From Porphyridium purpureum (Eukaryota > Rhodophyta > Bangiophyceae > Porphyridiales > Porphyridiaceae), in contig VRMN01000001.1 in assembly GCA_008690995.1 (NCBI GenBank), forward strand, positions 4,340,001 to 4,404,000: a stretch of 64,000 nt of DNA. The letters run 5' to 3'. Both the position numbers and the translations under genes were made by a program. Positions 3,378 to 61,176 of the stretch are shown piece by piece (position 1 is the stretch's first letter; each line of letters opens with the position of its first letter). The notes beneath the pieces were generated by a model that was not told the DNA's origin, made no database searches, and saw nothing but the letters and a program-made list of their open reading frames with translations.

Positions 3378-4244
3378 CTACGCAGCGAGCGACTCGAGCA
3401 GCAAGAACGTTCCGAGTGGCACTGAGGTCTCGACCTCAAAGCCGACCTTCCAGTTCTCAATCATGTACTTGCTGGTGGGGGTCTCGTCCATGTGCTTGAC
3501 CGCGATAATCATCTTACCGTTTTCAACGGCCTGCAGCGTATAGTTCCTGTGCGTCGTCGTGTCGTTCATGTGGTAGCGCACGCACACATACTGTCCAAAG
3601 TGATGGATGGGTAACGTCTTATTGCCGTCGACGGGCTCCAGGTAAAAGACGGTCTTCATCTCCAATTCCTCGTCATCACCCTCGTCCGATGTCACGGTCC
3701 TTGAATCCTGCTCCTCCTTGGCCTCTGCCACCTTGAACTTGCGGAAGCCCTCCCAGCCGCCTGGCTGGTCGCGCATCTCAGCGGTGAGCCTCTTCTCACT
3801 CTCCGCGAAGACGGCTGTGATGTGGTCGTAAGCCTTCCTCCACACAGTCAGAACCTCGGTGTCGTCACCCATAACGTCTTTGAGCCCCTTGATGAGAGCG
3901 TCTCCAAAGTACGGGTAGAATTCGGGCTTGATGCCGCGCGACACGTGCTTTGCCGACACGCGCTCGCAATCAGAAGAAAACTTGCCGAGGTCATCGATGT
4001 TGATGCAAAGCTGGAACAGAATGTGTGCCATCACCTTTGCCATCAAGGTCACCTGCGTCTTGCCGTCCTCACCGGACTTCTTGCCCAAAAAGCAAGTCGA
4101 GAAGTAGAACTTGAGCTCCGGGTGCGCTTCGAAGAAGTAGTCATACAACTTGGTCGCGACCTCTGGCCCACGGCCCTGGAGCATTTTTGCGGACTCATGC
4201 AGAGCCTGGATCTCTGCAGGAGACATTGCCAGTTCGGCCACCAT
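3378..4244 (-). CDS. Flavohemoglobin-like protein lacking the NAD domain
   Basis: 288 residues. Residues 1 to about 150 form a globin domain of flavohemoglobin type: B10 Tyr34 (TKLYDYFF), E7 Gln64 (KTQVTLM), proximal His100 (AKHVSRGIKPEFYPYFG). From about residue 160 it continues into the FAD-binding beta-barrel of the ferredoxin-reductase family (GGWEGFRKFKV, FYLEPVDG, FGQYVCVRY, and HRNYTLQ at the usual RxYS site). It ends after the strand VETSVPLGTFLLLESLAA, where a full flavohemoglobin would have about 130 more residues binding NAD(P)H. No such domain is seen in the 142 bases before the convergent cupin gene. Full enzymes detoxify nitric oxide as dioxygenases; this form would need another electron donor, or acts as a sensor or binder. 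An acidic insert (SDEGDDEELE) lies in the barrel. Confidence 0.88.
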   Translation of the reverse strand: MVAELAMSPAEIQALHESAKMLQGRGPEVATKLYDYFFEAHPELKFYFSTCFLGKKSGEDGKTQVTLMAKVMAHILFQLCINIDDLGKFSSDCERVSAKHVSRGIKPEFYPYFGDALIKGLKDVMGDDTEVLTVWRKAYDHITAVFAESEKRLTAEMRDQPGGWEGFRKFKVAEAKEEQDSRTVTSDEGDDEELEMKTVFYLEPVDGNKTLPIHHFGQYVCVRYHMNDTTTHRNYTLQAVENGKMIIAVKHMDETPTSKYMIENWKVGFEVETSVPLGTFLLLESLAA

Positions 4245-18882: not shown

Positions 18883-19533
18883 TTAGGTTGTCTTGACCAC
18901 AGGCTTTGAGAACAGACGACCGAAACCACCAAAAATGTGCAGTCCCATTTGCTCCTGTTCTTGCGCGCGCTGCCTGGACAACTCTCGGCGCTCCTGTTCT
19001 GTCATCGGATTGAAGAAAGGCAGCGAAAACACGCGCACAATCTGAGGCTGCGCTTCCCTTTGCAAGTCACCAAGTTTGCTCTCCTTGGCCACAGGCGCCG
19101 CATTCTCTTTTCCAGGCGCCTCTGACTCGGCAGCTTCCGTCTGCAAGAAAGGCTCGTCGTTCACATCACATGGGCACCAGTCTGACGCGCCAGAGCGGAA
19201 CGCAGCATCATGCATCTCAATCGCGCCCGCCCTTTCGAACGTCGCCCGAAACTCTTCCCGGCTGATTACTCGGTTGTTTCCATTCTCCCACTTGACGTGC
19301 GCTTTGCGCGCAGACGCATTGGACAGCACGTACTTGTACTCCATGTCACAGTGCTCCAGCTGGTCCGACGGCACGACGAATTCCAGCAGCAGCGAGCCCG
19401 CCTTGCCCTTCCTCATCACCGGCGCTGCCAGCACATTCCAGGCGCCGAGGCACGCCAGGTTGCCCACCACACGTACCACATCTTCGCTTGCGAGCGTCTG
19501 CTCGATCATCAGCCGCACTTTATACTCCACCAT
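18883..19533 (-). CDS. CBM20 starch-binding protein
   Basis: 216 residues. Residues 2 to about 100 form a CBM20 alpha-glucan-binding module: VRVVGNLACLGAWNV with the binding-site Trp, the core strand DMEYKYVLSNAS, and the hallmark VKWENGNNRVI with the second Trp. The remaining half is a Glu/Ala/Lys-rich stretch and a Gln/Glu-rich helix near ERRELSRQRAQEQEQMG. It contains no enzyme domain. The ATG at 19533 (MVEYKVRLMIEQ) puts the domain right at the N terminus, leaving no room for a transit peptide and fitting cytosolic floridean starch. The divergent neighbour 1.8 kb away is a large protein with two CBM48 modules, which suggests a shared role in storage glucan. Likely an adaptor or targeting protein; partner unknown. 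Confidence 0.9.
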   Translation of the reverse strand: MVEYKVRLMIEQTLASEDVVRVVGNLACLGAWNVLAAPVMRKGKAGSLLLEFVVPSDQLEHCDMEYKYVLSNASARKAHVKWENGNNRVISREEFRATFERAGAIEMHDAAFRSGASDWCPCDVNDEPFLQTEAAESEAPGKENAAPVAKESKLGDLQREAQPQIVRVFSLPFFNPMTEQERRELSRQRAQEQEQMGLHIFGGFGRLFSKPVVKTT

Positions 19534-21319
19534 GGTGTACGATGTGTTCGACGCGCACTTTGGTGTCGCCTCCTCCTCGTCCCAACGCGCACGCCTCTGC
19601 ACCGCGCGTCAACTGGAGCAACGTCTGTCGCCCACCACACTACACCCTTCTTACCCCGGCCTTGGTTCTGCCTCGATTCCGCGCCGCTGCTGGTGCTGCG
19701 TCAATCTCGTGTGCTGCTCTCCACACCATCCGAAACAATCGCTCACACGCGGCACACCGACCACACGTGAACGCACGCACACCAAAATGCAACCTGGCTC
19801 TTTTTATGTAGCAGCGAGCATTCATTCCGCGATAAGCCGTTGGCGATAAAATATCGTAAAACAACACAGCCGATTAGGGTTTCCGCTGGACGTGCTTGGT
19901 CGCGCCGAGTCCACGCTGCAGGCTTTCTCATTCCGAAACGTAGGGAGGTTGGAAGGCATTGGCTCGGACATTGGAAATTGGACAGGGACTGGGACGCCAT
20001 GATTGCCTCTGCTGTGAGACCACGCGGCCAAGCGCGCGAGCAGTGGTGGAGTCTACGCGACGTGAAGCGAGACCACCAATCATTGTGTGCGATCGGAAAC
20101 AAAAGCGAGTCGGCTCATGATGCAGCCGACGCTGCCCATTCTGTGACATGGTAGATATGTGTGACTTGCATCCGAGGCTCAGAAATGCGCCCTGTCCGAC
20201 GCGGCCTCGGTCGGGATCTCGAAGAATGCGTCGTTGAATGGCAGCGGTAAGATGCGTCTTGATACCGAGTCACGTCCACGCGGCACGCAGATCGGTGATC
20301 TCCCTTGACGGTATCGTCCGGCCGGTGATTGAATTCACTGTGAAGCCAGCCTGGTGGCGTCAAAACTCGGCAGCATTACTTGAGCAAGCCGAATGACGAA
20401 GAGGGAGAGCGCGGTGCTTTCTGTCAGAACGTTTCCTAATCCTCAGGGAGCACGCGATGTAACGTGGTATGGAAGCACCTGTTTTCCGGCATCCAGCCGC
20501 GGCGTCAAAAGTTGGAAGACACGAAGAAGATGATGGCATGAGACCTGCCCACGTGCGTGAGTGAAGCACGTGCAGGCCGAACTTGCAAGGGTGACAGAGT
20601 GCAAGAGCCGCTCGCCAACCAGAGAGCGGCGGTGCGCCTTCCGAGACGCCACGCGAACCGTATTTTCGGCCCCGGCGCGCTTCACGACGGCATGTTCGCG
20701 GACGCCGCATGTCCGCCGTTTTGACCTGATCTGACGCCTGAACGCTGACCGTGCTTTCCCCGCTGCCTGTGTCTGTGACCGGGTCTGTGCATCGAAACAT
20801 GGCCCGCACATGTGGTATGCACGAGCGCATCTCACGCGCCACGCACGGGATCCTGTCCCGGGCCTTTCGCGCACACGCTGCGCGCTGTACCGCGCGTGCG
20901 TGCGAAAGCGTGCGCGTTTCAGTAGAGACGGTTTGCCGTGATGACCGGAGTACAGTTGGAAAAAAGACGTTTGTGTAGCACTGACTGCGCTCGGCGTCCG
21001 GCTTCTGTGTTTTGTGTTTCGTTATTTTTGGGCGCTCACTCGCGCTGATGAACGTGCGCCACGCGGAAGCGATGATGAAGAAGATGACCGAATCAGCGCA
21101 ACGAACGAGATCGGAGTGGATTGGCGTGATGCGGGGAGTAATGGGACGTGTGTGTGTGTGTGCGTGTGCGTGTTTGTGGGATACGATGGCAGGGGTGGGC
21201 ACTCGGGTGATGTGGAGAAGAGAAAAGGTTGAGGGGAGGAGGAGGGAGGGGTGGGGAAGGGACGGAAACAGGCGGGTGGGGTGGGGAGAAGGGAGAGGCA
21301 TTGAGTGGGTGTGGTCCGG
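19534..21319. promoter_or_regulatory. Long region between two glucan-binding genes
   Basis: 1.8 kb between the divergent CBM20 and coiled-coil/GH13/CBM48 genes. It holds a GT tract (21149-21172) and a purine-rich, G-heavy stretch just before the downstream ATG (21220-21300). A long stop-free antisense frame runs through much of it but shows no recognisable protein. Promoters of both genes are expected here. Confidence 0.45.
21149..21172. repeat. GT dinucleotide repeat, slightly interrupted
   Basis: A TG/GT microsatellite with one or two GC interruptions, about 150 bases before the start of the large GH13-like gene. Confidence 0.85.
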
Positions 21320-24300
21320 ATGGACGCGGATCCGGCGGCCGTCGTCGATAGGCTGCTTGCGCAGACCGGCGGCAAGCTGGACGACCAGCTGCAGCTGATT
21401 CATGACCTGCAGAATGGCATCTTCGACTTTGTGCTGCACCAGGAACGGCTCAGCTCGGACGGCATCTCGCTCTCGGATATGGCCACGCTCAAGGAGCTGC
21501 TCGATATCCACGACGACTTCCGCAAGTCCCTGCTGCTCAGCAACCCGAAAATGTCCCAGTTCCTCGACGAGCACAGTCACAACACGCACGCCGCATCGAC
21601 GCGGCCCGACAGGGACACAAGCAAGCCCAGGGACTCTCTCCAGCGCGCGGGCAGTGGAGGATCTTCCGCGGCTGCCAGCAAGGCAAAAAGCGCACACACG
21701 CAGCGGGAGCTCGATTGGTGGTGCATGTCAGTCATCGCGCCGTCTTTTGCTCCACCCGCCGAAGCGCCCGTTCCCGATCCCCGACGAAAACCAGTTGCAA
21801 ACTCGCCGCAAGATTCGCAGCGGCACCAAAGAGACGCCCGCGTCGACAGGGCTGCGCCGCCGGCGAAAGAGGCTCCCGCTTCGGTGGCGCCACCGAAAGC
21901 GACTCGGAGCGTGGCCGTGGAGACGCTTCCGCCAGTGCTCCCGCACAGCAAAAGTCGCGAAGTGCAAACAGAAGTAAAACAGCTCGTGCACGTCGCATCC
22001 CAAACCGAGGTGACGCGAGTGGACTGGGAGTATGAGGAGGCCACGAGAGCAATGCGCGCCGCATCCATTAAGGAAGAAGAAAGCAACCGGCTTGGCGCGG
22101 GGTCGAAGCGAGATGAGCGGCTGTACAAGATTTTGGATGATCTTAAAAGTCAGCTTAAGATGGAAATTGAATCAAGCCAGCAGGCACGTGACGAGTGCCG
22201 ACTGTACGAAGAAAAATGTGCAATCGCGGAGAGCAAGGTCGCTGAGCTAGAGGCACAGTGTGCGGAGCAGGGCGGTCGAGCTGTTGACCTGCGGTTACAG
22301 TTGGATGCTCTTCGCCAGGAGCGCGACCAGCTGGAGCGCCTGAGTAACGAAAAGGCTGCTCTTGTGCTCAGGAGCGACTCGGAGCTCTTGTCATTACGGA
22401 GCCGCACAGAGCAACTAATGGTGGAGCTCAAGGACAGTCACTCAAAGGTAGAGGAATATCAGCGTCATATGCGCAGCGCAGATGCATCTGAGGCGGCTTT
22501 GCGAGACGTTTTGATGAACACGGAAAAGTCGACACAGGGCTTGGCCGCAAAAATTGACGATTTCTTCACTTTCCGCGAGGCCCTATGTTCTCAAAGTGGT
22601 GACGGTGAAACCCCCGAGCAAAAGGCGATTGAAAGCACCGCATCTCATGGACTCAAGGGCAGCCTATCTTCCGCGGTACCGTGGCAGCCTGAAAGCAGCG
22701 ATGATGTTGCGCTGCGCGCCCGTGAGGCACTCCTCCTGCGGGATTTGCTAGATGATGAACAACTCTTGAACCTAGCCGCCGTATCTGAGGGTGTTCAAAA
22801 TGGGACTGATGCTGACCGTGTGGCAGTGACTGGTAGACGTGGCGCTGGTACTGTTGCGGAGCGTGACGTACAGTCTATTGCTGCTGCTGAGCACGCAGTT
22901 CCGATGAGCGAGCTGGATCGGGTAGCGCCTCGAGAAGCTGAGCGAAGAGATATGGTCTCGAATCTCCTCAAACAGTTCTACCTGAAAGAAATTCCGTCCG
23001 ACACGGCGTGGGTCAAGGACATCGAGCGATTGCAGAGCAGCGTTCTCTCAGGCACTGCTTCTTGGAATCCGCATGTAGTAAGCGTCGAGTCGCTTGTAGA
23101 ACGTCACGCTTGCCTGTGTATCCGTAATTTGGTGGACGCAGCTGATCTGGGGAGCGTCGTGTCTGGCAGCAAACAGGGCTCAGAGGCCGATGGCAGAAGC
23201 GCAAGGTTAGCAGATCAAGTGCCAGAATGGGTCGCTCATTACAAGGCATTTTTGCAGTGGCTCATTCGCCAGAAGAGCGCCGAGGAGGTGCGCCGCATAT
23301 GTCACATGGTTGAGAGTGTGTGTCGGCGGTTGAATACCGTCGAGTGGGAGTCAATTTATGTCCGTTTCTTTGCCGCGGTGAGCGAAGGGACCCTGCAGCG
23401 GCTGGATAAAGACCGCGAGCGAGACGCCAAGCTACCCAAACGCTGGTATAGGCAGAACTGGTACTGTGTACAGATGCGCGACTTGCATCTACAGAGCTCG
23501 ACTGAAGTGCTTCCGATTCTGCTAGATCACTTGCGCCATCATTTGAAGATTTTCAACTTGCTCGTTTTGGTGTCATTCGAGCAACCAGATGCGCACGAGG
23601 CAGACGCCGAGGCGCGTTTGATGAAGCTGCTGCTGAGAGAAGCAAGTAAGCGCGGCATGCGTGTTGTGCGCGAGTATCGCAACCACGTGCGGCACATTGA
23701 CCACATCTGGTGCCGCCGTGCTCTGAGTGGTGACACCAAGCACGGAAACATGTTCGTCAGGCGTGATGACTGGAAAAAAGTACGCGACGCGCCGCTTGAC
23801 CAACAGGAGCATCAGCACCTAAACCCAAGCGCAAGCTCAAGTTCTGGTTTTGGCGCCAATACGTACGATGTGTCTGTGTATGATAATGGAGTCGGGGAGG
23901 TGTCGAGCAGGCGCCGCATTGTGTCGGCAGAGTCTGGTGGCAGCGAGCATTTAATTCCAACGCTCGTAGACGGTAAGCTGATCCAGTTTTACAGCCCTTA
24001 CGGAAACCAACATATGCAGGTCGACCTTCGGAGCCCAGAGAATTTGCAGGTGCTGTTTTCTTCCATTGTGTCGGACATGAATGGCCTTGGTGCGCTCGGT
24101 GTATTCTTTCCAGATGTCGAGCTGTGGGTGGACCGCGGCTCTGACACGAACGATGGCAAGTTGGCGCCAGAAGCTTCGGCACTCTTCTCGCTCGTTCATT
24201 TACTTGTGCACTTAATCAGCGATCGTGGCGTGGTTCTGGGACGTGCGCGGTCTTCTCGCCTAAACGAACAGCTGGCGGCCGCCGTGGGAGCTGATCACGT

Positions 24301-26068
24301 AGCCCCTCCGGTCTTGTCAGTGCCAACGGGTAAGATGGTTTTGCAACCGGCCGCCGCTGGGGCTTCGTGGGCTTCTTCTGCCATTGCAGAGCCGTTTGAC
24401 ATGATTTTGTCGTCCGCATCGTATCTTGCTTGGTTGCGCACATGCGTGCACGACGATCCAAAATTTTTGATCGAGCAGATTCTCGCCACTTCCTCGGCGG
24501 GAGGCATATCCAAAGATGGCGCTTCGGGTAACTCAGCGCGAAACTCCCTGATGATGCTTGATGGACCGTTTGTCGATTATTCCATGGAAGATGTGTTGGG
24601 CGGTAAGGACATTGTGAGCGCAGAGGTCAAGTCTCGCGCATCTCTTTTAAGAGAGCAGCATGGACTTTGCTACGCACGCATGGGGGATTTTCAGTCAAAT
24701 TCTGAAGCAGAAACGCACAAACTGCACTTGTTGTTACTCTTGCAGTTTGTGTTACCAGCTCCCATGGCGCTCTTTGAAGGGCTCGAGTTCTTGATGGCCA
24801 GCGACCTTGCTGCCAATGTGACCGAATCGTCCAGTTGTTTCTTTGCACCAGGTTTCAAGAACGTTGTGCAGGACGAGAGCGGTGGGAATCAGCGCATGGA
24901 AATGGAGACACTGAAGTTGGTCTCCGATCTGACGAGCCTTTTCCGACCTTCGGGAGACGATGACCTGAAAATTGGTGAGGAATTGAGTGGCTCTTCGTCG
25001 TCTTCATCCTCTTCGCAAAATTGCGTGGCTCTTTCGACCAAAGTGGACGGCACGTTTGCCTTGGTCGTGACGAGAGCCAAAATGCGAGAACAGGAAACCA
25101 TGCTTGTGGTGGGAAACTTCACGCCGCAAACTATAAATATCAGTGTAGAAACGTGCGATATGATGATGGGCATGACACAGCTGCCGGGGGTGTTTGGCAT
25201 CACCCGTCTGCTTGCCTCTGAGAAGGAGACGGTCAAACTCGAAGCAACGCAGGAGGGCATGGAGGTGTCGCTATCCGGTTTCGCCTTTGGTGTGTTCCGC
25301 CTCGATGACATTCCCGGCGAGCGCAGGAACCTGAAGGCACTTGGCGAGAAAGGAATAGATCACGCATTCGCTGACGGCGCGAAAGCGAATGTGCGCCCTG
25401 TATTGGTCGAGTGGGTGGACTCGGCGTCCAGCGGTAGTCACATGGGTTGCGACTTTCTCTGGGCATACGGGTCCTTTTCGGAATGGAAGTATCCCGTATG
25501 CTTGTTCCCGGTGCACGGCAGTAACAACTCAAAATTTGCCACGGTGCTTTTCTTGCGGCCCGGCCAGTATGAGCTCAAATTTGTAGTGAACAACAAGTGG
25601 ACATGTTCCAAGCACATGAAACTCAAGGACCCCAAACTGGCGCCGGACAACGGTGCAAACAACAATCTTCTGGACGTGGAAGAGATCGGGGCCACCGACA
25701 GCCCCTCTTCGCTCTTGGCGACTGTGCAAGCTTTTACAGGCACATGGTTCCAGCACATGGCCCGATGTGTTACCGAATTCCGCAACCGCGACGCCGCGCG
25801 TGCTGTGAAGGATGTGCTAGTGCCAAAGATGTTCACATGGACGTCGCCAGGCGCACGAGAGGTGTACATATGTGGAAGCTGGAACCAGTGGGAATTTTTG
25901 TATCCTTTGAGTTTTTGGGAGACCGGCATGTATCATTGGATCGTGCTCAACATACCAACCGGAGTGCATACGTATCGCTTCTTGGTTGACGGCGTTTGGT
26001 GCGCTTCCAAGCAAGACGAACACTCGACGGATTCGTCAGGCTTCCCTTCGAACATCTTGAGACTGTAA
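21320..26068 (+). CDS. Coiled-coil / degenerate GH13 / double CBM48 protein
   Basis: 1582-residue intronless protein. Residues 1-80 are helical, followed by a disordered stretch; a long coiled coil runs from about 250 to 415. From about 706 to 1333 it follows the order of a trehalose-synthase-type GH13 barrel plus C-domain: EASKRGMRVVREYRNH is the region around motif I, VDLRSPENLQVLFSSI matches the DLNY...NP helix, then LHLLLLLQFVLPAPMALFEG and a beta-rich end (LVVGNFTPQ, GFAFGVFRL). Catalytic residues look lost: the motif I DxxxNH is RxxxNH, the GxRxD nucleophile motif reads GVFFPD without its Arg, and the acid/base region reads VVLGRARS. Two AMPK-type CBM48 modules end the protein (about 1359-1453; 1503-1582, with VYICGSWNQWEF). 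Probably a glucan-bound scaffold, not an enzyme. ATG 21320 chosen. Confidence 0.9.
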   Translation: MDADPAAVVDRLLAQTGGKLDDQLQLIHDLQNGIFDFVLHQERLSSDGISLSDMATLKELLDIHDDFRKSLLLSNPKMSQFLDEHSHNTHAASTRPDRDTSKPRDSLQRAGSGGSSAAASKAKSAHTQRELDWWCMSVIAPSFAPPAEAPVPDPRRKPVANSPQDSQRHQRDARVDRAAPPAKEAPASVAPPKATRSVAVETLPPVLPHSKSREVQTEVKQLVHVASQTEVTRVDWEYEEATRAMRAASIKEEESNRLGAGSKRDERLYKILDDLKSQLKMEIESSQQARDECRLYEEKCAIAESKVAELEAQCAEQGGRAVDLRLQLDALRQERDQLERLSNEKAALVLRSDSELLSLRSRTEQLMVELKDSHSKVEEYQRHMRSADASEAALRDVLMNTEKSTQGLAAKIDDFFTFREALCSQSGDGETPEQKAIESTASHGLKGSLSSAVPWQPESSDDVALRAREALLLRDLLDDEQLLNLAAVSEGVQNGTDADRVAVTGRRGAGTVAERDVQSIAAAEHAVPMSELDRVAPREAERRDMVSNLLKQFYLKEIPSDTAWVKDIERLQSSVLSGTASWNPHVVSVESLVERHACLCIRNLVDAADLGSVVSGSKQGSEADGRSARLADQVPEWVAHYKAFLQWLIRQKSAEEVRRICHMVESVCRRLNTVEWESIYVRFFAAVSEGTLQRLDKDRERDAKLPKRWYRQNWYCVQMRDLHLQSSTEVLPILLDHLRHHLKIFNLLVLVSFEQPDAHEADAEARLMKLLLREASKRGMRVVREYRNHVRHIDHIWCRRALSGDTKHGNMFVRRDDWKKVRDAPLDQQEHQHLNPSASSSSGFGANTYDVSVYDNGVGEVSSRRRIVSAESGGSEHLIPTLVDGKLIQFYSPYGNQHMQVDLRSPENLQVLFSSIVSDMNGLGALGVFFPDVELWVDRGSDTNDGKLAPEASALFSLVHLLVHLISDRGVVLGRARSSRLNEQLAAAVGADHVAPPVLSVPTGKMVLQPAAAGASWASSAIAEPFDMILSSASYLAWLRTCVHDDPKFLIEQILATSSAGGISKDGASGNSARNSLMMLDGPFVDYSMEDVLGGKDIVSAEVKSRASLLREQHGLCYARMGDFQSNSEAETHKLHLLLLLQFVLPAPMALFEGLEFLMASDLAANVTESSSCFFAPGFKNVVQDESGGNQRMEMETLKLVSDLTSLFRPSGDDDLKIGEELSGSSSSSSSSQNCVALSTKVDGTFALVVTRAKMREQETMLVVGNFTPQTINISVETCDMMMGMTQLPGVFGITRLLASEKETVKLEATQEGMEVSLSGFAFGVFRLDDIPGERRNLKALGEKGIDHAFADGAKANVRPVLVEWVDSASSGSHMGCDFLWAYGSFSEWKYPVCLFPVHGSNNSKFATVLFLRPGQYELKFVVNNKWTCSKHMKLKDPKLAPDNGANNNLLDVEEIGATDSPSSLLATVQAFTGTWFQHMARCVTEFRNRDAARAVKDVLVPKMFTWTSPGAREVYICGSWNQWEFLYPLSFWETGMYHWIVLNIPTGVHTYRFLVDGVWCASKQDEHSTDSSGFPSNILRL

Positions 26069-26173: not shown

Positions 26174-27325
26174 TCAATCTACATATAGCCATACCTCGTT
26201 TTTTCGCCGCCAGGGCAGTGTAAAGATGGGTGTATATTGTGCGAGAATCACGCAATTCTTGTCCGAGACATGAATGCCGTCCCGCTTGAGTGCCACCTCG
26301 AGCGCGCTGCGTTTCTGCTGAGCGATATCTGGTGTCAGACTTCCGTCAAACGTGATCACGGCCACTTTGCCAAGAGAGCGCTTTCTGAGCGTGATCCAGG
26401 GAAAGTTGGGCTTGGGCGGGTTCTTGACTTGCGCGACGGGGGGTAGTACACCGCACATTTTCTTCTTCCCGTTAAAGCCTTCGGGAAACTCGAGCAAGAG
26501 CGGTACGGTGCGTGGAATGCGCACCTTGAGCTCGTTTTCACCAGCAAAGTATAGGTCCAATTGACTAAGACCCTCTGGGCGCTTCTCATACTCTACATCT
26601 GCAGTAGTGAACGGCTCACTATAGTTTCGGATCTCGTACTCTTTTGTCTGCCGAGTGATTTTGAAGAACGGGCGCACAGCATCGTCCGGATCGTTCTTCC
26701 AGCGACCGCTGGCGTCCGCGATCATACCGGCCACGAGCTGAACGGCCTCTGCCGACACGGGTCTCTGATTCTGAATGGCGTCCCAAGTGTCGATGTGCTC
26801 TCTGATGCGGTACTCGTTTGCCTCATCCAGCACGTAGCACGTGGTGCCGGTGAACAAGAGGCGCGGCTTCCACGGCACGGGGCGTGCGGTCATGGCGAGC
26901 GTCCACGCCGTATCAATTACCCACACCCCATCTTGTCGCTTGCGCACGTGTATACTATGCAGGTCAAACTCCAAACCAGAGAAAACGAACGACTCGGCCA
27001 GAAAACGAATGTTGTTGGCGTACTTTGCGATTCCTATGAAGTCGTTCAACGGATCCTGAAATTTGACCCGAGGGTCGTAGAGCGACTCATCCACTTTCCC
27101 TGCGGGCAGGTTTTCGAGCTCCTTGATGATACAATTCTTCATGCGCTCCACGCCGACGGGCGGCGTCTCCTCCTTCCAGAGCTGCATCGCCGTTGCGACG
27201 GCAGTGCGCTGAGTCCGGTGTCGCAGCACAGCGTGCGTTGGCGACACCCGATCTGACCGACCGCGCCCACGCATACTCGTTCTTGCACCCGGCTGAGCAG
27301 CCAGGCTCACTGCCCATGCGATCAT
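26174..27325 (-). CDS. SOUL heme-binding protein with DUF2358 domain
   Basis: 383 residues. The first 60 or so, starting at the ATG at 27325 (MIAWAVSLAAQPGARTSMRG), are basic and hydroxylated like a plastid transit peptide. A DUF2358 domain follows (SLYDPRVKFQDPLNDFIG, DGVWVIDTAWTLAMTARPVPWKPRL). A SOUL/HBP-type domain then fills the C-terminal half (TKEYEIRNYSEPFTTADVEY, KVRIPRTVPLLLEFP, VAVITFDGSLTPD, ending NEVWLYVD). This domain pair is known from plant plastid SOUL proteins thought to bind heme or tetrapyrroles in plastoglobules or stroma; function here is inferred by family. It converges on the GH13-like gene with a 105-base gap and shares a repeat-bearing upstream region with ALG3. Confidence 0.92.
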   Translation of the reverse strand: MIAWAVSLAAQPGARTSMRGRGRSDRVSPTHAVLRHRTQRTAVATAMQLWKEETPPVGVERMKNCIIKELENLPAGKVDESLYDPRVKFQDPLNDFIGIAKYANNIRFLAESFVFSGLEFDLHSIHVRKRQDGVWVIDTAWTLAMTARPVPWKPRLLFTGTTCYVLDEANEYRIREHIDTWDAIQNQRPVSAEAVQLVAGMIADASGRWKNDPDDAVRPFFKITRQTKEYEIRNYSEPFTTADVEYEKRPEGLSQLDLYFAGENELKVRIPRTVPLLLEFPEGFNGKKKMCGVLPPVAQVKNPPKPNFPWITLRKRSLGKVAVITFDGSLTPDIAQQKRSALEVALKRDGIHVSDKNCVILAQYTPIFTLPWRRKNEVWLYVD

Positions 27326-27683
27326 GATCCTATTTCCGCCACACGGTACCCGGCACCGTGCGCAGTCACTAGCTCTCTCCAACTCTCGCCCAACCTGTGG
27401 CCCAACCCGATCACCAAAGTCACTTTCCTGCCACCTTCCACACCGCACCGCACCCGCCCACCAAGCCCAGCAGCCGTCAGTCGCACAACTGTACACAACA
27501 CTCTCGAAGTACTGCGATGCTTGGCTTGAATGGAGTCCGGCCACCCTCCTCCTACACGAAGCCATTCCTCTTCTACAACCGCTTGACCGATTGACCGATT
27601 GACCGATTGACCGATTGACCGATTGACCGATTGACCGATTGACCGATTGACGACCGATAAGCGACCGATGGACCGTTAAACCG
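27326..27683. promoter_or_regulatory. Bidirectional promoter region, SOUL gene / ALG3
   Basis: 358 bases between the two outward-reading starts. Its ALG3-proximal part is occupied by a perfect octamer array and degenerate copies reaching to within about 15 bases of the ATG at 27684, so the array probably lies in the ALG3 5' leader or core promoter. Confidence 0.6.
27585..27648. repeat. Eight perfect tandem copies of GACCGATT
   Basis: Eight exact head-to-tail copies of an 8-base unit, followed to 27686 by diverged copies (GCGACCGATGG, GACCGTTAAACCGATGG). An 8-base period is not a coding period, and the array sits upstream of ALG3. Confidence 0.97.
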
Positions 27684-29072
27684 ATGGCGCGAGGAACCGA
27701 TGGGAGTTTGGCTTGTGATGGTTTGACTCGCAGGCAAGCCATGGGTGTGACGGCAGAACACGTAGGAGCGCGCATCATGTGTAGCAAAGCGAACGAGAGA
27801 GGGAGGACGCAAGGGGGTGGATTTGCGTGTGCGAGTTGGACGAGGATGATAGGGGAAGTATGGCTGGATCGATTGGATAGATACACGAAACGTCGGGATG
27901 GGTTTATGATTCTGAGCGCGTTCGTGCTGCTGTTTGTCGCCGTGAGCGGGAGTTTCGTGATCGTCCGGGTGCCGTACACCGAGATTGATTGGGTGGCGTA
28001 CATGCAGGAGGTGGCAGGCGTCCTGGAGGGCGAGCGCGATTATATAAAGCTCCGCGGAGATACGGGGCCACTCGTGTATCCAGCAGGCTTTGTGTATATT
28101 TACTCGTTCCTTTTCTACGTCACAGATGCTGGCGTGAATGTGCAGCTCGCACAATGGATCTTCCTCGCCGTCTTGTTGTGTACGGTGGCCGTCGTGCTCG
28201 GTTTTTACCGCGTCGCGATCACGTCGCAACCCGGATTGATGCCACCCTTGGTTGTCATGTTGCTTGTGGCCTCGCGCCGGGTAATGTCTCTGCATGTGCT
28301 TCGCTTATTTAATGATTGCGTCGAGGCGCTGCTTGCCTACGCATCCATTTTGCTTTTTGCGCATAACAAGTGGGCGTTCGGTTGCGTGCTCTACTCCTTG
28401 GCTGTCTCTGTCAAGATGAATGCCCTCCTTTACGCTCCGGCGCTGCTGATGCTGTTGCTTCAGGCAAATGGAGTGGCTCGAACTATAGGTTACCTGTCGA
28501 TCTGCGCGGTTGTTCAGATTGTTTTGGGCCTACCGTTTCTCATCAGCCACCCAGTGCAATACCTCACCAAGGCCTTTGAATTGAGCAGGGTATTCGAGCA
28601 CAGGTGGAGTGTCAATTACGCGTTTCTTTCCATTCCTACATTCACCAGCAAAGGCTTGGCGCTCGTGCTACTCCTTGGCCACCTCGCCACGCTTGCCTGG
28701 TTTGGGTCGCGAGAAGTTTGGGGGCGGAAAGTGCACCCGGTACGCAGTACTGGTCGCGCCGCTGCGCTGGATGCAGACTACGTCTTGAGAGTACTGTTCA
28801 CGTGCAACTTGATTGGGATAGCCTTTGCTCGCACCCTGCACTACCAGTTCTACGCCTGGTACTTTCACACCCTGCCGTACCTGCTTTGGCGCGGCCGGCT
28901 CCCATTTGCTCTGAAGCTGGCCGTCCTGCTTGGAATTGAGATGGCATACAACATCTACCCTCCGCGCGCGTGGTCATCGATAGTACTTCATGTGTGTCAT
29001 GCCATTACAATTGCGGCTCTGAGCGCCACGTCGTCCGTGAGCAAGAGCGAGACCAGCAAACATAATCACTAA
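27684..29072 (+). CDS. ALG3: ALG3 alpha-1,3-mannosyltransferase (GT58)
   Basis: 462-residue multi-pass ER membrane protein. It adds the sixth mannose, in alpha-1,3 linkage from dolichyl-phosphate-mannose, to the lipid-linked Man5GlcNAc2 precursor of N-glycans. Family signatures are the luminal YTEIDWVAYMQEV, the GPLVYPAGFVYIYSFLFY loop, LRLFNDC, SVKMNALLYAPALL, the HRWSVNYAFLS segment and the late FARTLHYQFYAWYFHTLPYL. About ten hydrophobic segments are visible. The length matches other ALG3 proteins, but the first 54 residues look nonconserved and the in-frame ATG at 27846 (MIGEVWLDRLDRY) may be the true start. Its presence implies full-length N-glycan precursors. Confidence 0.95.
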   Translation: MARGTDGSLACDGLTRRQAMGVTAEHVGARIMCSKANERGRTQGGGFACASWTRMIGEVWLDRLDRYTKRRDGFMILSAFVLLFVAVSGSFVIVRVPYTEIDWVAYMQEVAGVLEGERDYIKLRGDTGPLVYPAGFVYIYSFLFYVTDAGVNVQLAQWIFLAVLLCTVAVVLGFYRVAITSQPGLMPPLVVMLLVASRRVMSLHVLRLFNDCVEALLAYASILLFAHNKWAFGCVLYSLAVSVKMNALLYAPALLMLLLQANGVARTIGYLSICAVVQIVLGLPFLISHPVQYLTKAFELSRVFEHRWSVNYAFLSIPTFTSKGLALVLLLGHLATLAWFGSREVWGRKVHPVRSTGRAAALDADYVLRVLFTCNLIGIAFARTLHYQFYAWYFHTLPYLLWRGRLPFALKLAVLLGIEMAYNIYPPRAWSSIVLHVCHAITIAALSATSSVSKSETSKHNH

Positions 29073-35408: not shown

Positions 35409-36191
35409 CTAAAGCGCGAGAAATTCTCGCCACGTGTCCAGTTCAGCTTGCATTTTTTGCAAAAGAACCTCGATCGTCTTGATCTGCTCCGTGGGATCGT
35501 CTCGCTGCAAGGTTCGCACATCTTGAACGAGGCAGTAAATCGCGTAACCAGCAAAGGCAGCCTGGATACCGGCCCCGCCATATTTGGCGACATTTGACAT
35601 GACCTTGGATGCGTTTCCAGCAGCAATAGTGACGTCATCGCCCGCGGCATATACACTGGTAAGTGCCATGCTCGCGATCTCGTCGCCGAACTCGGAAGTC
35701 GTGACCACAGTTGAAGATCTCGCGATCTCGCGGCCAAGCTTGATTGCATTGGATATCGGTGACAGTGCATGCAGAGCCACGTACGCGCCCTGATTCAAGA
35801 CGTCTTTCTGAAGACTATTCATGGCGTCCGAAAACTCCTCCATGCGTTCTCGCTCTTCATCGATGCATCTTTTCAACTGATTCAGTTGCTTCTTTTTCAG
35901 GATACATTCGGTGCCCTTTGTTCCAGCGCCTACAAGTCCGCCTGCGATACCTGTTCCGGTTGCAACGTATCCGACTATCACCGCAGCGCCAATGGGACCG
36001 GTTATTAGAATAGCAGCTGTCGCGCCTATCCCGACGAGAGCCCCGGCGACGCCCACGGACGATCCCGCTACGTATGCCGCACGGCAGTTCCGCGTATGCA
36101 TTTTCATATCAGTCAAAATTTGCTCGCATTCCTCAATCGTGCGCTCTCGCGCCCTCAACAGCTTTGCCCCAATTTCGAAAAGATTGGCCAT
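35409..36191 (-). CDS. Apolipoprotein L-like membrane protein
   Basis: 260 residues with the layout of the ApoL family: an N-terminal helix (about 10-35), a glycine-rich hydrophobic hairpin (about 40-95: VGVAGALVGIGATAAILITG and IVGYVATGTGIAGGLVGAGT), a charged coiled coil (KKQLNQLKRCIDEERERMEE), a central helical part, and a final hydrophobic helix plus coiled coil (AGIQAAFAGYAIYCLVQDV, then LLQKMQAELDTWREFL). The NCRAAYVAGSSVG block and the YCLVQDVRTLQ block line up with ApoL1 counterparts (DCTIANVVSSSTG; VYLVQEWKHLQ). Animal ApoL proteins associate with intracellular membranes and some form ion channels; the role here is unknown. No signal peptide. Start ATG at 36191. It shares a short upstream region with the glycine-rich gene at 36599. 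Confidence 0.85.
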   Translation of the reverse strand: MANLFEIGAKLLRARERTIEECEQILTDMKMHTRNCRAAYVAGSSVGVAGALVGIGATAAILITGPIGAAVIVGYVATGTGIAGGLVGAGTKGTECILKKKQLNQLKRCIDEERERMEEFSDAMNSLQKDVLNQGAYVALHALSPISNAIKLGREIARSSTVVTTSEFGDEIASMALTSVYAAGDDVTIAAGNASKVMSNVAKYGGAGIQAAFAGYAIYCLVQDVRTLQRDDPTEQIKTIEVLLQKMQAELDTWREFLAL

Positions 36192-36598: not shown

Positions 36599-37630
36599 AT
36601 GAACAGGATGGAGTTTGATGCCGGACATGCAGGTATCGTGCAGTCGAGAGTTAAGATGTTTGAGTGTGGTGCAGAAGCAAATGAGCTTGAGTCCGTGGTC
36701 CTGCTGCATACGAATTTCGATTTTCTGAAGCCATTGACAGGTGTTTACGTTGCCCAAGGCGCTCCGGATCCTCAGTCTTCTGAATCATTTAAGCCTGTCA
36801 TCTTGGTTCAAGGTGACTGGGCTAAACAACTTGCTTTGACACTGACGGGAACTGTCACCGGTGGCATCAGTGGAGCATGTATTGGCGCTCTGCTCGTAAG
36901 TGGAACATGTGCAATCCTTTTCGGTGTTCAGGGGGAAAAGCTTGGAGAGATTGCCTTGAGCGGAGCTCAACTCGGCGCTCTGGGCGGTGCCGTACTGGGA
37001 GCGTACAAAGGTCTTCACGCTCGTTCTTTTCGAGACGCAGTCGTGGATGGGGTGAAAAGTGGTTTTGTTGCTGGAGCCATTGCCGCAGCAATGCTGCTTC
37101 TACACGAAAGCGTCAAGATTGCTCGCGATATGATTCGCAATGGATATAGCTACGCGAAAGGAGATCTGCTCGATGCAATGGACGACCAGTTGAACAAGCT
37201 GGAGAAGTGGTATCAGAAGCAGCTTGAAGAGCTCAAGCACCAGTGCAAAGAAATGACAGACGATGCGATTAGGCGTGGAGGAAGCGAAGGAGAGCGTCTC
37301 ATGAAATTGGCAAATGACATATATCAGAAGAACTTGAAAGAGCTAGAAGAGAAAGCCATCGAGAAAGGGGGTCATCTGCAAAAACTCTTACAGGGTTGTT
37401 TGGCCGAGATAGACGCTATCGCAGCCACGAACATAGCAAAAGGCGAGGCTGCTGGTCATCGAATCGTGGACAATGCAGCGAAAGTGGCCGGAGAATTGAT
37501 CGCAGAAGGCGAAGATGCGGGCGGAAGAGTGATCAACGAAGCTTCGAAGCAAGGCGCGAAACTACCAGGTAGCATGTGGGTCAATGTACGAGACGGCTTC
37601 ACTCGTGAATTGCGAAAGCTTTTCAAGTAG
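36599..37630 (+). CDS. Glycine-rich membrane protein with amphipathic helical tail
   Basis: 343 residues, family not recognised. Residues 1-75 are mixed and soluble. About 80-175 hold three glycine/alanine-rich hydrophobic stretches with GxxxG spacing (TGTVTGGISGACIGALLVSG, SGAQLGALGGAVLGAY, SGFVAGAIAAAMLLL). From about 185 to the end the protein is a long charged helix. Two adjacent 22-residue units near the C terminus repeat (IAKGEAAGHRIVDNAAKVAG and IAEGEDAGGRVINEASKQGA, each plus two residues), an amphipathic period like that of apolipoproteins and LEA proteins. It has no signal peptide. Base composition seems less GC-rich than in neighbours. The head-to-head placement with the ApoL-like gene suggests a joint membrane role, which is inference. 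Confidence 0.8.
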   Translation: MNRMEFDAGHAGIVQSRVKMFECGAEANELESVVLLHTNFDFLKPLTGVYVAQGAPDPQSSESFKPVILVQGDWAKQLALTLTGTVTGGISGACIGALLVSGTCAILFGVQGEKLGEIALSGAQLGALGGAVLGAYKGLHARSFRDAVVDGVKSGFVAGAIAAAMLLLHESVKIARDMIRNGYSYAKGDLLDAMDDQLNKLEKWYQKQLEELKHQCKEMTDDAIRRGGSEGERLMKLANDIYQKNLKELEEKAIEKGGHLQKLLQGCLAEIDAIAATNIAKGEAAGHRIVDNAAKVAGELIAEGEDAGGRVINEASKQGAKLPGSMWVNVRDGFTRELRKLFK

Positions 37631-59145: not shown

Positions 59146-59952
59146 CGCAAATGAGTCTCAGCCGTCCGAGCCGCAATCCAACACACCTCAGCACGCTTCC
59201 AAAACACGCTCTTCCTCGTCCGCTTCACGACGACCACCCACCAAACGCTCACGCGGCAACCACAACTTCCGCACGGTCCCCCTTTTCTTCCTGCACGCAG
59301 GCTCCCCCCACTTTCCTCCTCACTCCCCGCTCCGTCTCCAACCCAAACACCCCGCACCCCACATCCACCGCCCCAGCTCCGACAACCACGCCCCGCCCCG
59401 CCCCCAACCAACTCTCACCGCCCTTCCCCGCGGCCGAACGCACCCACTGTACCTTCCTGCTCCTACCATCAGACCGGCGTACAGTGAAAAGTACACTTCC
59501 GCGTGGCGCAGGGGGCGCGCGTGTACCGCCAAGATGTCATTGCAATGACGCAGTGCGCGCTCTCGCGCGGGGGCACGCTGTTTCCATGCATGTTGCTTTG
59601 CGTGGGCGTGCGCGGCATGATGGCGCTTGTACAGTGCCGGTTGCATTGTGTAGTGAAAACACACCGCGTGGTGATTTCTGTCCATGGCGTGTGTTTTGTG
59701 TTTTCTGTTGTGTGTCGTTTGTGGCCAATGGGAGAATGCGCAGCCGCAAGTAAGGAAGAGCGGGGCGGAGATCGTAACTCACTGCACGACACTGACGGAT
59801 GGATGGGGAGGGGGTGAAGTACATGTCGGCGAGCACGTGAGACCGCGGTGGAACGCAGGAGAGGATTGGTGAGTGAAGGGAAGGAGCGCGCAGGAAGAGC
59901 TGGCAGCTGGATTGGGAACGAGTGGGGGTTTAACAAAGCGCAGAGTTACAAT
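59146..59952. promoter_or_regulatory. Long bidirectional promoter region, RRM gene / 2-HAOX
   Basis: 807 bases between outward-reading starts. The first 300 bases are strongly C-rich on the plus strand, the rest mixed, with TGTGTTTTGTGTTTTC near 59690-59705. No gene is supported. Confidence 0.45.
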
Positions 59953-61176
59953 ATGGTGGGGACAATGGTGTCGCAGGCCGAGGCGCGGAGCCTGACCACA
60001 TACAGGACGGTCGATCCGCCGACGCTCGTCGGCTCGGCGGTCCCCGTCAATGTGTACGAGTACCACGCGCTGGCCAAGGCAAAACTGCCGGCCATGGTGT
60101 ATGGATACTACGCGTCGGGTGCCGACGATATGCAGACGCTCAAGGATAACGAGGAGGGCTTCAAGCGGTTGCGCTTCCGCCCGCGAGTGCTGATCGATGT
60201 GACCAAGCAGGACCTCACCGCGGTGATCATGGGCACGGCGACGTCGTTCCCAATGGTCCTTGCTCCAACAGCCATGCAGAGAATGGCCCACCCCGAGGGC
60301 GAGCTTGCCACGGCACGCGCCGCGGCCGCACAGGGCGTGATCATGGGCCTGTCGTCGTGGTCCACCACGGCGCTCGAGGACGTCGAGGCTGAGGCACCGG
60401 GCTCGCCAAAGTGGTTCCAGTTGTACGTGTACAAAGACCGAGCCATCACGCTCGAGCTTGTGCGCCGCGCGGAGAGGCAGGGCTTCCTTGCCATTGCGCT
60501 CACTGTCGACACGCCGCGCCTAGGCCGCCGCGAGGCCGATATCAGAAACTCTTTCTCGCTTCCTCCGCACTTGACCATGGCCAACTTTGCCGCAATCGAT
60601 CCTTCGCGCGAGCAGGGCAAGATGACAGGACCTGGTGCTAAGGGTTCGGGCCTCGCCTCGTACGTCGCCAGTCTCATCGACCAGAGCCTCAGCTGGAAGG
60701 ACATCCAGTGGCTCAAGGAGAACTCCAAGATGCCCATTTTGGCAAAGGGCATTGAGACAGCCGAGGATGCCGTGCTCGCCATGGAGGCAGGCTGCGCCGG
60801 TATTATTGTCAGCAACCACGGCGCGCGCCAACTAGACGGTGTGGTCTCGACCATCGACGCGCTGGAGGAGGTGGTTCAAGCAGTGCGAGGCAGAATACCA
60901 GTCTTCGTTGACTCGGGCGTGCGCCGCGGGACTGACATCGTCAAGGCGCTCGCGCTGGGTGCGTCGGGCGCGTGCATTGGACGGCCGTATGTGTGGGGCC
61001 TCGCCGTGGCCGGGCAGCAAGGCGTAGAGCACGTCATTCAGATGCTGCGAAATGAGTTTGCGCTGGCCATGGCCCTGTGCGGCTGCGTCAAAGTTTCGGA
61101 TATCAAGCGTGACATGGTCATTCGGGACGTGTACGCGCCATACGACGTCCAGGCGCAGCTGAAGAGCAAAATGTGA
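59953..61176 (+). CDS. FMN-dependent 2-hydroxyacid oxidase, peroxisome type
   Basis: 407-residue FMN enzyme of the glycolate oxidase / lactate oxidase family, which oxidises short 2-hydroxyacids to 2-oxoacids. Landmarks: [12 protein letters not shown] near the start, [51 protein letters not shown], the substrate/FMN core [14 protein letters not shown] with the catalytic His, and FMN-phosphate residues in [20 protein letters not shown]. It ends in SKM, a PTS1-like tripeptide, so peroxisomal location is likely. Plant glycolate oxidase has a similar length; whether glycolate or L-lactate is preferred cannot be told by eye. The ATG at 59953 is chosen; a few more codons to 59965 (second Met) are possible. 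Confidence 0.95.

Follow-up and report, generated by a model that had tools for sequence, protein, structure and literature searches.

A Porphyridium purpureum protein with two C-terminal CBM48 modules and a probable, degraded trehalose-synthase-like region

Introduction

The plant PTST proteins are described as non-catalytic proteins in which a coiled coil is joined to a CBM48 module (PMC6243121, PMC7582286). Plant ISA2 is described as a protein with a role in starch that has a CBM48 and a GH13 barrel whose catalytic residues are substituted (PMC12510319). LSF1, an enzyme-family relative with a starch-binding domain, has been proposed to act as a scaffold on starch (PMC8968401), and SS5 (SSV), an inactive relative of a glucan enzyme, is reported to act in granule initiation with the coiled-coil protein MRC/PII1 (PMC7582286). 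The alpha-amylase-family ectodomains of rBAT and 4F2hc have been called fake or orphan alpha-glucosidases (PMC8537225). Among the titles and abstract openings of the matches listed for the open-licence literature, none described a pseudoenzyme derived from trehalose synthase (TreS) that carries CBM48.

We analyzed a stretch of 64,000 nucleotides from the red alga Porphyridium purpureum, referred to as the window. Little is known about how granules of cytosolic (floridean) starch are initiated and organised. A glycogen-initiation protein, which we read as glycogenin, has been reported to act in starch synthesis in Cyanidioschyzon. Red algae are described as having one ISA gene or, in rare cases, two, and the set of three ISA paralogues as restricted to green plants and algae (PMC12510319). 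In a starch-gene survey with P. purpureum among its species, the passages covered here (12 of 22 places) mention CBM20 proteins and no TreS-derived pseudoenzyme with CBM48 (PMC8703398).

Results

Gene and overall architecture

The open reading frame (ORF) at 21320-26068 is real and open. An alternative GTG start at 21305 would add five residues, giving 1587 codons without an internal stop, and residue numbers used here are counted from this GTG. Codon usage supports coding weakly. The whole ORF scored 0.049, at the low end of the range in nine neighbours (0.045-0.218). The coding frame was the best of four readings (with two other frames and the reverse strand) in three of six segments, namely those covering the barrel, the C-domain and the CBM48 part, and in the first three segments it did not rise above the other frames or the reverse strand. 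Six peptide patterns from the protein had zero matches in the DNA of viral contigs. The protein has two C-terminal CBM48 modules and probably a coiled coil and a degraded TreS-like GH13 region, with the following features (residues are those of the protein):

21320..26068, + strand: whole gene; ORF encoding a 1582-aa protein from ATG
21989..22564, + strand: probable coiled coil, residues 229-420; SMC match, bicaudal D match, heptad score
23441..23653, + strand: putative beta1-alpha1-beta2-alpha2 with the GYDIADY loop deleted, residues 713-783; block pLDDT 66-93 in AlphaFold2, 45-72 from the single sequence; gap in alignment A1
23612..23797, + strand: putative alpha2-beta3 with conserved region I, the best-conserved TreS block, residues 770-831; hhalign score 40.3 to TreS columns 89-152; NCBIfam and PDB matches
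23867..23986, + strand: insert where TreS has domain B, residues 855-894; opposite gaps in A1 for most TreS rows; pLDDT under 50
24098..24115, + strand: putative beta4, conserved region II, G932-V-F-F-P-D937 against TreS G(L/M)RLDA (nucleophile); A1; strand at model residues 227-230, block pLDDT 90
24227..24262, + strand: putative beta5, conserved region III, GVVLGRARSSRL against TreS RMxLAEANQW; A1; strand at model residues 271-274, block pLDDT 80
24446..24457, + strand: uncertain candidate for conserved region IV, V1048-H-D-D1051 against TreS NHDE; A1; model pLDDT under 50
24461..24544, + strand: insert in the second half of the putative barrel, residues 1053-1080; gaps in most TreS rows of A1
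24710..24805, + strand: putative TreS block containing ...LPGTPVLYYGDEIGM..., residues 1136-1167; second collinear hhalign block, 22.3
25082..25309, + strand: putative beta C-domain as in TreS, residues 1260-1335; hhalign 10.5, noise level alone; strands at model residues 551-628, block pLDDT 47-80
25466..25684, + strand: CBM48 module 1, residues 1388-1460; PF16561 at E 3.1e-11 alone; SIP2, AMPK beta and LSF1 structures
25820..26059, + strand: CBM48 module 2, residues 1506-1585; best PF16561 stretch, E 1.7e-29; AMPK beta-1 structure, E 3.6e-9

CBM48 modules and coiled coil

The AMPK1_CBM family (PF16561) matched the protein in two stretches at E 1.7e-29. Two other Pfam matches at E <= 1 fell below the cut-off (E 0.12 and 0.21), both on module 1. 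Among solved structures, module 1 matched SIP2 (E 7.5e-4), AMPK beta (from E 9.9e-4) and LSF1 (8j5d, E 0.008). We then compared both modules with AMPK beta at positions that we take to be glucan contacts. As read from the structure alignments, module 1 retains W1394, K1425, W1432 and N1453, and module 2 retains W1529 and W1565, with Arg 1558 in place of Lys and Ser 1582 in place of Asn. The two AMPK-type CBM48 modules that had been proposed at the C-terminus can thus be assigned with certainty from the profile matches, with the contact Trp residues intact in both.

A coiled coil had been placed at about residues 250-415. SMC models matched residues 226-420 in the profile search (E 0.0055), and among solved structures a bicaudal D coiled coil matched residues 290-354 (E 0.49). 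The mean heptad score of residues 229-420 was 8.26 against a shuffle mean of 7.18, inside the shuffle range (maximum 8.53). The SMC match and the mean score point to a coiled coil, but its heptad-score peak was equalled in 28 of 300 shuffles, and we assign a coiled coil at about 229-420 with moderate confidence.

Likeness of the middle region to trehalose synthase

The preliminary description had named the AMPK1_CBM and GH13 profiles as a check on its reading. The first matched as given above; for GH13, four pieces of the TreS-like region (about residues 713-1335) matched nothing in Pfam at E <= 10. In NCBIfam, three of the four pieces, including the whole region, also had no match. The remaining piece, 107 amino acids long (window positions 23540-23860), matched three models, all of them GH13: TreS (E 0.023), TreC (E 0.06) and cyclomaltodextrinase (E 0.15). 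The TreS score of 13.2 bits lies far below the curated cut-off of 678. Searched against the PDB at E <= 10, the same piece had five matches, the first three of them GH13 (5brp, 5brq and 5x7u; best E 0.19). The whole region matched three chains at E <= 10, the sole GH13 among them being the trehalose synthase 5x7u, third at E 2.6 and in register.

We built a TreS profile from 69 of 80 fetched TreS loci, 11 loci being excluded by a motif filter. Among the 59 six-frame window ORFs of at least 200 amino acids, the profile ranked this ORF first (E 0.0072; next 0.91). With hhalign, the 69 TreS sequences aligned to three blocks that follow the order of TreS (residues 770-831, 1136-1167 and 1260-1335), with scores of 40.3, 22.3 and 10.5 and probabilities of 39.9, 0.7 and 0.0 per cent, the third block being at noise level alone. 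None of 200 shuffles reached the top block (maximum 27.4) or the score of the collinear chain (73.1 against a maximum of 45.0), and the reversed sequence gave one block with a score of 18.3. Twenty-seven other ORF pieces from the window (26 from other ORFs and one from this ORF's own N-terminal part) scored at best 29.4 against 40.3.

We also built six profiles from other ORFs at these loci. Just one of them scored high (44.8), a family of 11 ORFs with TreS motifs; it recovers the first block, and its second listed alignment (16.0) breaks the TreS order. The five remaining control families scored 10.5-22.6. They include a 51-member family, taken by eye for GlgE, that scored only 16.5, and a GlgE-like GH13 origin was rejected on this score. 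Global hhalign gave no useful alignment. A semi-global profile alignment with cheap gaps scored 16.6, against a mean of 4.2 (sd 2.6, maximum 14.2) in 100 shuffles and 3.6 for the reversed sequence.

Because of the block scores, the shuffles, the control families and the NCBIfam and PDB matches, we treat a TreS-type ancestry as likely. The middle region is probably a strongly diverged relative of GH13 TreS.

Predicted fold

Residues 706-1340 were modelled with AlphaFold2 using an alignment with 61 TreS sequences. The mean pLDDT was 53 and the pTM 0.51, with 64 of the 635 residues at 90 or above and 125 at 70-90. Block pLDDT was 66-93 in the stretch beta1-alpha1-beta2-alpha2-beta3 and 67-92 in alpha3-beta4-alpha4-beta5. 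Confidence was moderate for the strands of the putative C-domain (47-80). Values under 50 were found at model residues 115-197 and 300-548, the latter being residues 1005-1253 of the protein. In a Foldseek search with this model, the best 50 of 1014 matches at E <= 10 were headed by the TreS of M. smegmatis (E 4.1e-8), and we take all 50 to be GH13 enzymes; the TM-scores of the listed GH13 matches were only 0.25-0.40. Since the input alignment was made of TreS sequences, the model is a test of compatibility and not an independent proof.

We also modelled residues 706-987 from the single sequence. The mean pLDDT was 39, and the model repeated the opening beta-alpha-beta-alpha-beta order (blocks 45-72) and nothing beyond it. 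Foldseek with this model found no match at E <= 0.001, and the best 50 of 1122 matches included no GH13 and were mostly RuvC, cryptochrome and editing-domain structures. The earlier reading of about 706-1333 as following the TreS block order is borne out by the collinear blocks, which none of 200 shuffles equalled. A complete TIM barrel remains putative, with beta1 to beta5 modelled confidently from the TreS alignment and residues 1005-1253 at pLDDT under 50.

Active site

The active site was read from two alignments, a MAFFT alignment of the region with TreS (A1) and the semi-global profile alignment. We preferred A1 at beta4, beta5 and region IV because it aligns beta4-alpha4-beta5 almost without gaps. 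In A1 the TreS loop DDGYDIADY is missing. At the GxRxD motif, Arg is replaced by Phe and the nucleophile Asp by Pro, with an Asp (D937) one residue later; in the semi-global alignment, the nucleophile motif lies opposite a gap. The TreS string LAEA lies opposite LGRAR in A1, so that the acid/base Glu is replaced by Arg 982 (Arg 980 if read gap-free), and in the semi-global alignment by Ala 1018. At region IV, A1 sets NHDE on VHDD (D1050), and the semi-global alignment places the TreS HDE in a gap after N1080. The region-I His is retained only with two single-residue gaps, as in hhalign. Among near-invariant TreS columns, 37 of 162 are retained in A1 and 14 are gaps; the retained columns comprise 13 of 64 charged or amide, 7 of 32 Gly or Pro, 16 of 56 hydrophobic and 1 of 10 Ser or Thr positions.

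With Pro or a gap at the one position and Arg or Ala at the other, neither the nucleophile Asp nor the acid/base Glu stands in its place in any alignment. We searched the three forward frames for the lost motifs and found no NHD, GYDxxDY or AE motif of the searched pattern, and two GxRxD strings, both far from the expected position. Since no other forward frame has the motifs in the right place, a sequencing frameshift does not explain their loss and was rejected. Unspliced introns were also considered as a possible source of the two inserts, a reading that we do not favour.

These results agree with the preliminary description in that GVFFPD stands for GxRxD (residues 932-937) and that the acid/base block has no Glu. 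Its reading of RxxxNH for DxxxNH holds for the string itself (REYRNH at 789-794), but the His at the region-I position varies by alignment. Of the catalytic set that it considered lost, two of the three carboxylates (the nucleophile Asp and the acid/base Glu) are gone, but the third aligns with VHDD or with a gap. The TreS-like active site is degraded and appears non-catalytic, and D1050 and the shifted D937 could still occupy the site.

Genomic neighbourhood

An ORF of 239 amino acids at 18883-19602 (- strand) is oriented divergently to the CBM48 gene and lies some 1.7 kb upstream of it. It has an N-terminal CBM20 (PF00686, E 1.6e-9), and its product is possibly a second starch-associated protein. 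In 20 further window ORFs, the Pfam matches were mostly to ordinary eukaryotic genes, including ALG3, Las1, RPA1, PMT, WD40, class 3 lipase and others. An ORF at 26174-28003 (- strand) combines DUF2358 with a SOUL heme-binding domain and overlaps, on the opposite strand, the 5' portion of the ALG3 ORF; because of this overlap, its true start is probably further downstream. The ORF at 3378-4244 (- strand) has a globin followed by an FAD-binding oxidoreductase domain, resembling the start of a flavohaemoglobin. Two divergent ORFs at 35409-36191 (- strand) and 36599-37630 (+ strand) have glycine-rich hydrophobic stretches, and their sole Pfam matches (ApoL and KIF14 helical bundle) are below the cut-off. 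At 59848-61176 (+ strand), we found an FMN-dependent alpha-hydroxy acid dehydrogenase of the glycolate/lactate oxidase type (PF01070, E 1.2e-136).

Discussion

Proposed function

On balance, we favour a role as a non-catalytic alpha-glucan scaffold, a reading that we hold with modest confidence. Such a protein would probably organise starch rather than cut or build it. The coiled coil would make a dimer, and the four CBM48 modules that the dimer would thus contain would grip glucan that is helical or at the granule surface. No longer acting on sugar, the former enzyme domain would dock enzymes that synthesise or degrade glucan, in the way proposed for PTST, LSF1, SS5 and ISA2 of plants. A docking role for a TreS-derived domain is reasonable, since TreS is reported to form a complex with maltokinase (5jy7). 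We infer all of glucan binding, dimerisation, docking, the role in starch and the stage concerned (initiation, shaping or breakdown).

A more far-reaching proposal is that one polypeptide unites the roles of plant PTST2, MRC and SS5/ISA2, with a coiled coil, an inactive glucan enzyme and a CBM48 pair, as a scaffold for granule initiation or organisation that arose independently, when an alga with cytosolic starch recruited a trehalose synthase of bacterial type. We regard this as rather unlikely.

Other explanations

The GH13 domain might instead keep some activity in an unusual active site built on D937 and D1050 in VHDD, with CBM48 targeting it to starch. The Asp that adjoins the nucleophile position in GVFFPD, and the MAFFT alignment of VHDD with NHDE, fit this idea. 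Against it, the acid/base Glu position holds no carboxylate in either alignment (it is Arg in A1 and Ala in the semi-global one), Phe stands for the Arg of GxRxD, the GYDIADY loop is deleted in A1, and only 37 of 162 near-invariant columns survive, with 14 gaps; residual activity is improbable. About as small a chance attaches to the view that the middle region is not GH13 at all and that its likeness to TreS arose by chance in a fast-evolving linker from coiled coil to CBM48. Pfam has no match there, three of four pieces are empty in NCBIfam, the best hhalign block has a probability of just 39.9 per cent, half of the TreS-aligned model is poor, and the fold search with the single-sequence model had no GH13 among the best 50 of 1122. 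A chance linker does not, however, account for a block score and a collinear chain that 0 of 200 shuffles reached, for a best block whose three NCBIfam matches and first three of five PDB matches are all GH13, or for two stretches of the barrel whose block pLDDT reaches 93 and 92.

Among solved structures, the AMPK-type modules best match AMPK beta and SIP2, its relative in yeast, which would suit a beta-like subunit of AMPK/SnRK1, that is, a glycogen or starch sensor of the energy-sensing kinase. In AMPK beta subunits, a C-terminal kinase-interaction domain follows the CBM. Here the protein ends at its second CBM48, and the interaction domain is taken to be absent because Pfam finds only AMPK1_CBM below E 0.1; LSF1 also matches module 1. 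An AMPK beta subunit was rejected since Pfam did not find the second domain, and we consider this origin very improbable. Least probable of all is a decaying gene, with a barrel that is dead for want of selection. The strong divergence from TreS and a codon usage at the low end of the neighbours are in its favour, but 1582 codons have stayed free of stops and the contact Trp residues of CBM48 are intact.

Significance

If true, a dead GH13 with CBM48 in a red alga would parallel ISA2 and PTST, and would mean that proteins lost catalysis but kept glucan binding on more than one occasion. The proposal concerns one gene that is open to knock-out and one protein that is open to pull-down.

Comparison with known systems

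The middle region shares its order of blocks, from beta1 to the beta C-domain, with bacterial TreS (GH13_16; 3zo9, 5jy7 and 5x7u). TreS comes first in the NCBIfam matches and in the Foldseek matches listed for the TreS-aligned model, and for the best piece it ranks behind another GH13 entry, 5brp/5brq, in the PDB. This protein differs from TreS in the lost active site, the probable added coiled coil, the two CBM48 modules and the inserts at 855-894 and 1053-1080.

PTST1, PTST2 and PTST3 (FLO6) are described as non-catalytic, with a coiled coil and a C-terminal CBM48 (PMC6243121, PMC7582286); of these features, CBM48 is certain in this protein and the coiled coil has moderate support. They are plastidial and without an enzyme-like domain, whereas this protein has a GH13-like region. 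PTST proteins are also much smaller than this protein. LSF1 shares the scaffold idea, and its structure 8j5d matches CBM48 module 1 (E 0.008), but it is of the phosphatase type and not GH13. SS5 with MRC/PII1 has a starch-synthase fold and consists of separate polypeptides, unlike this single protein. rBAT and 4F2hc are amino acid transporter subunits, and we know of no CBM48 in either.

The preliminary description had stated that a GH13 pseudoenzyme is not added to CBM48 in any well-known protein, which is corrected by plant ISA2 as it is described in PMC12510319. ISA2 (GH13_11) is a non-catalytic GH13 with CBM48 in starch metabolism, but belongs to another GH13 subfamily and has one CBM48 and an extra N-terminal beta sandwich, with no coiled coil in that description (PMC12510319). 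Isoamylase was absent among the NCBIfam GH13 models matched here (TreS, TreC and cyclomaltodextrinase), and, in contrast to ISA2, both CBM48 modules are C-terminal and follow the putative barrel. This protein is not the first to combine CBM48 with an apparently dead GH13 domain; what is new is the proposed TreS ancestry, the C-terminal twin CBM48 and the probable coiled coil.
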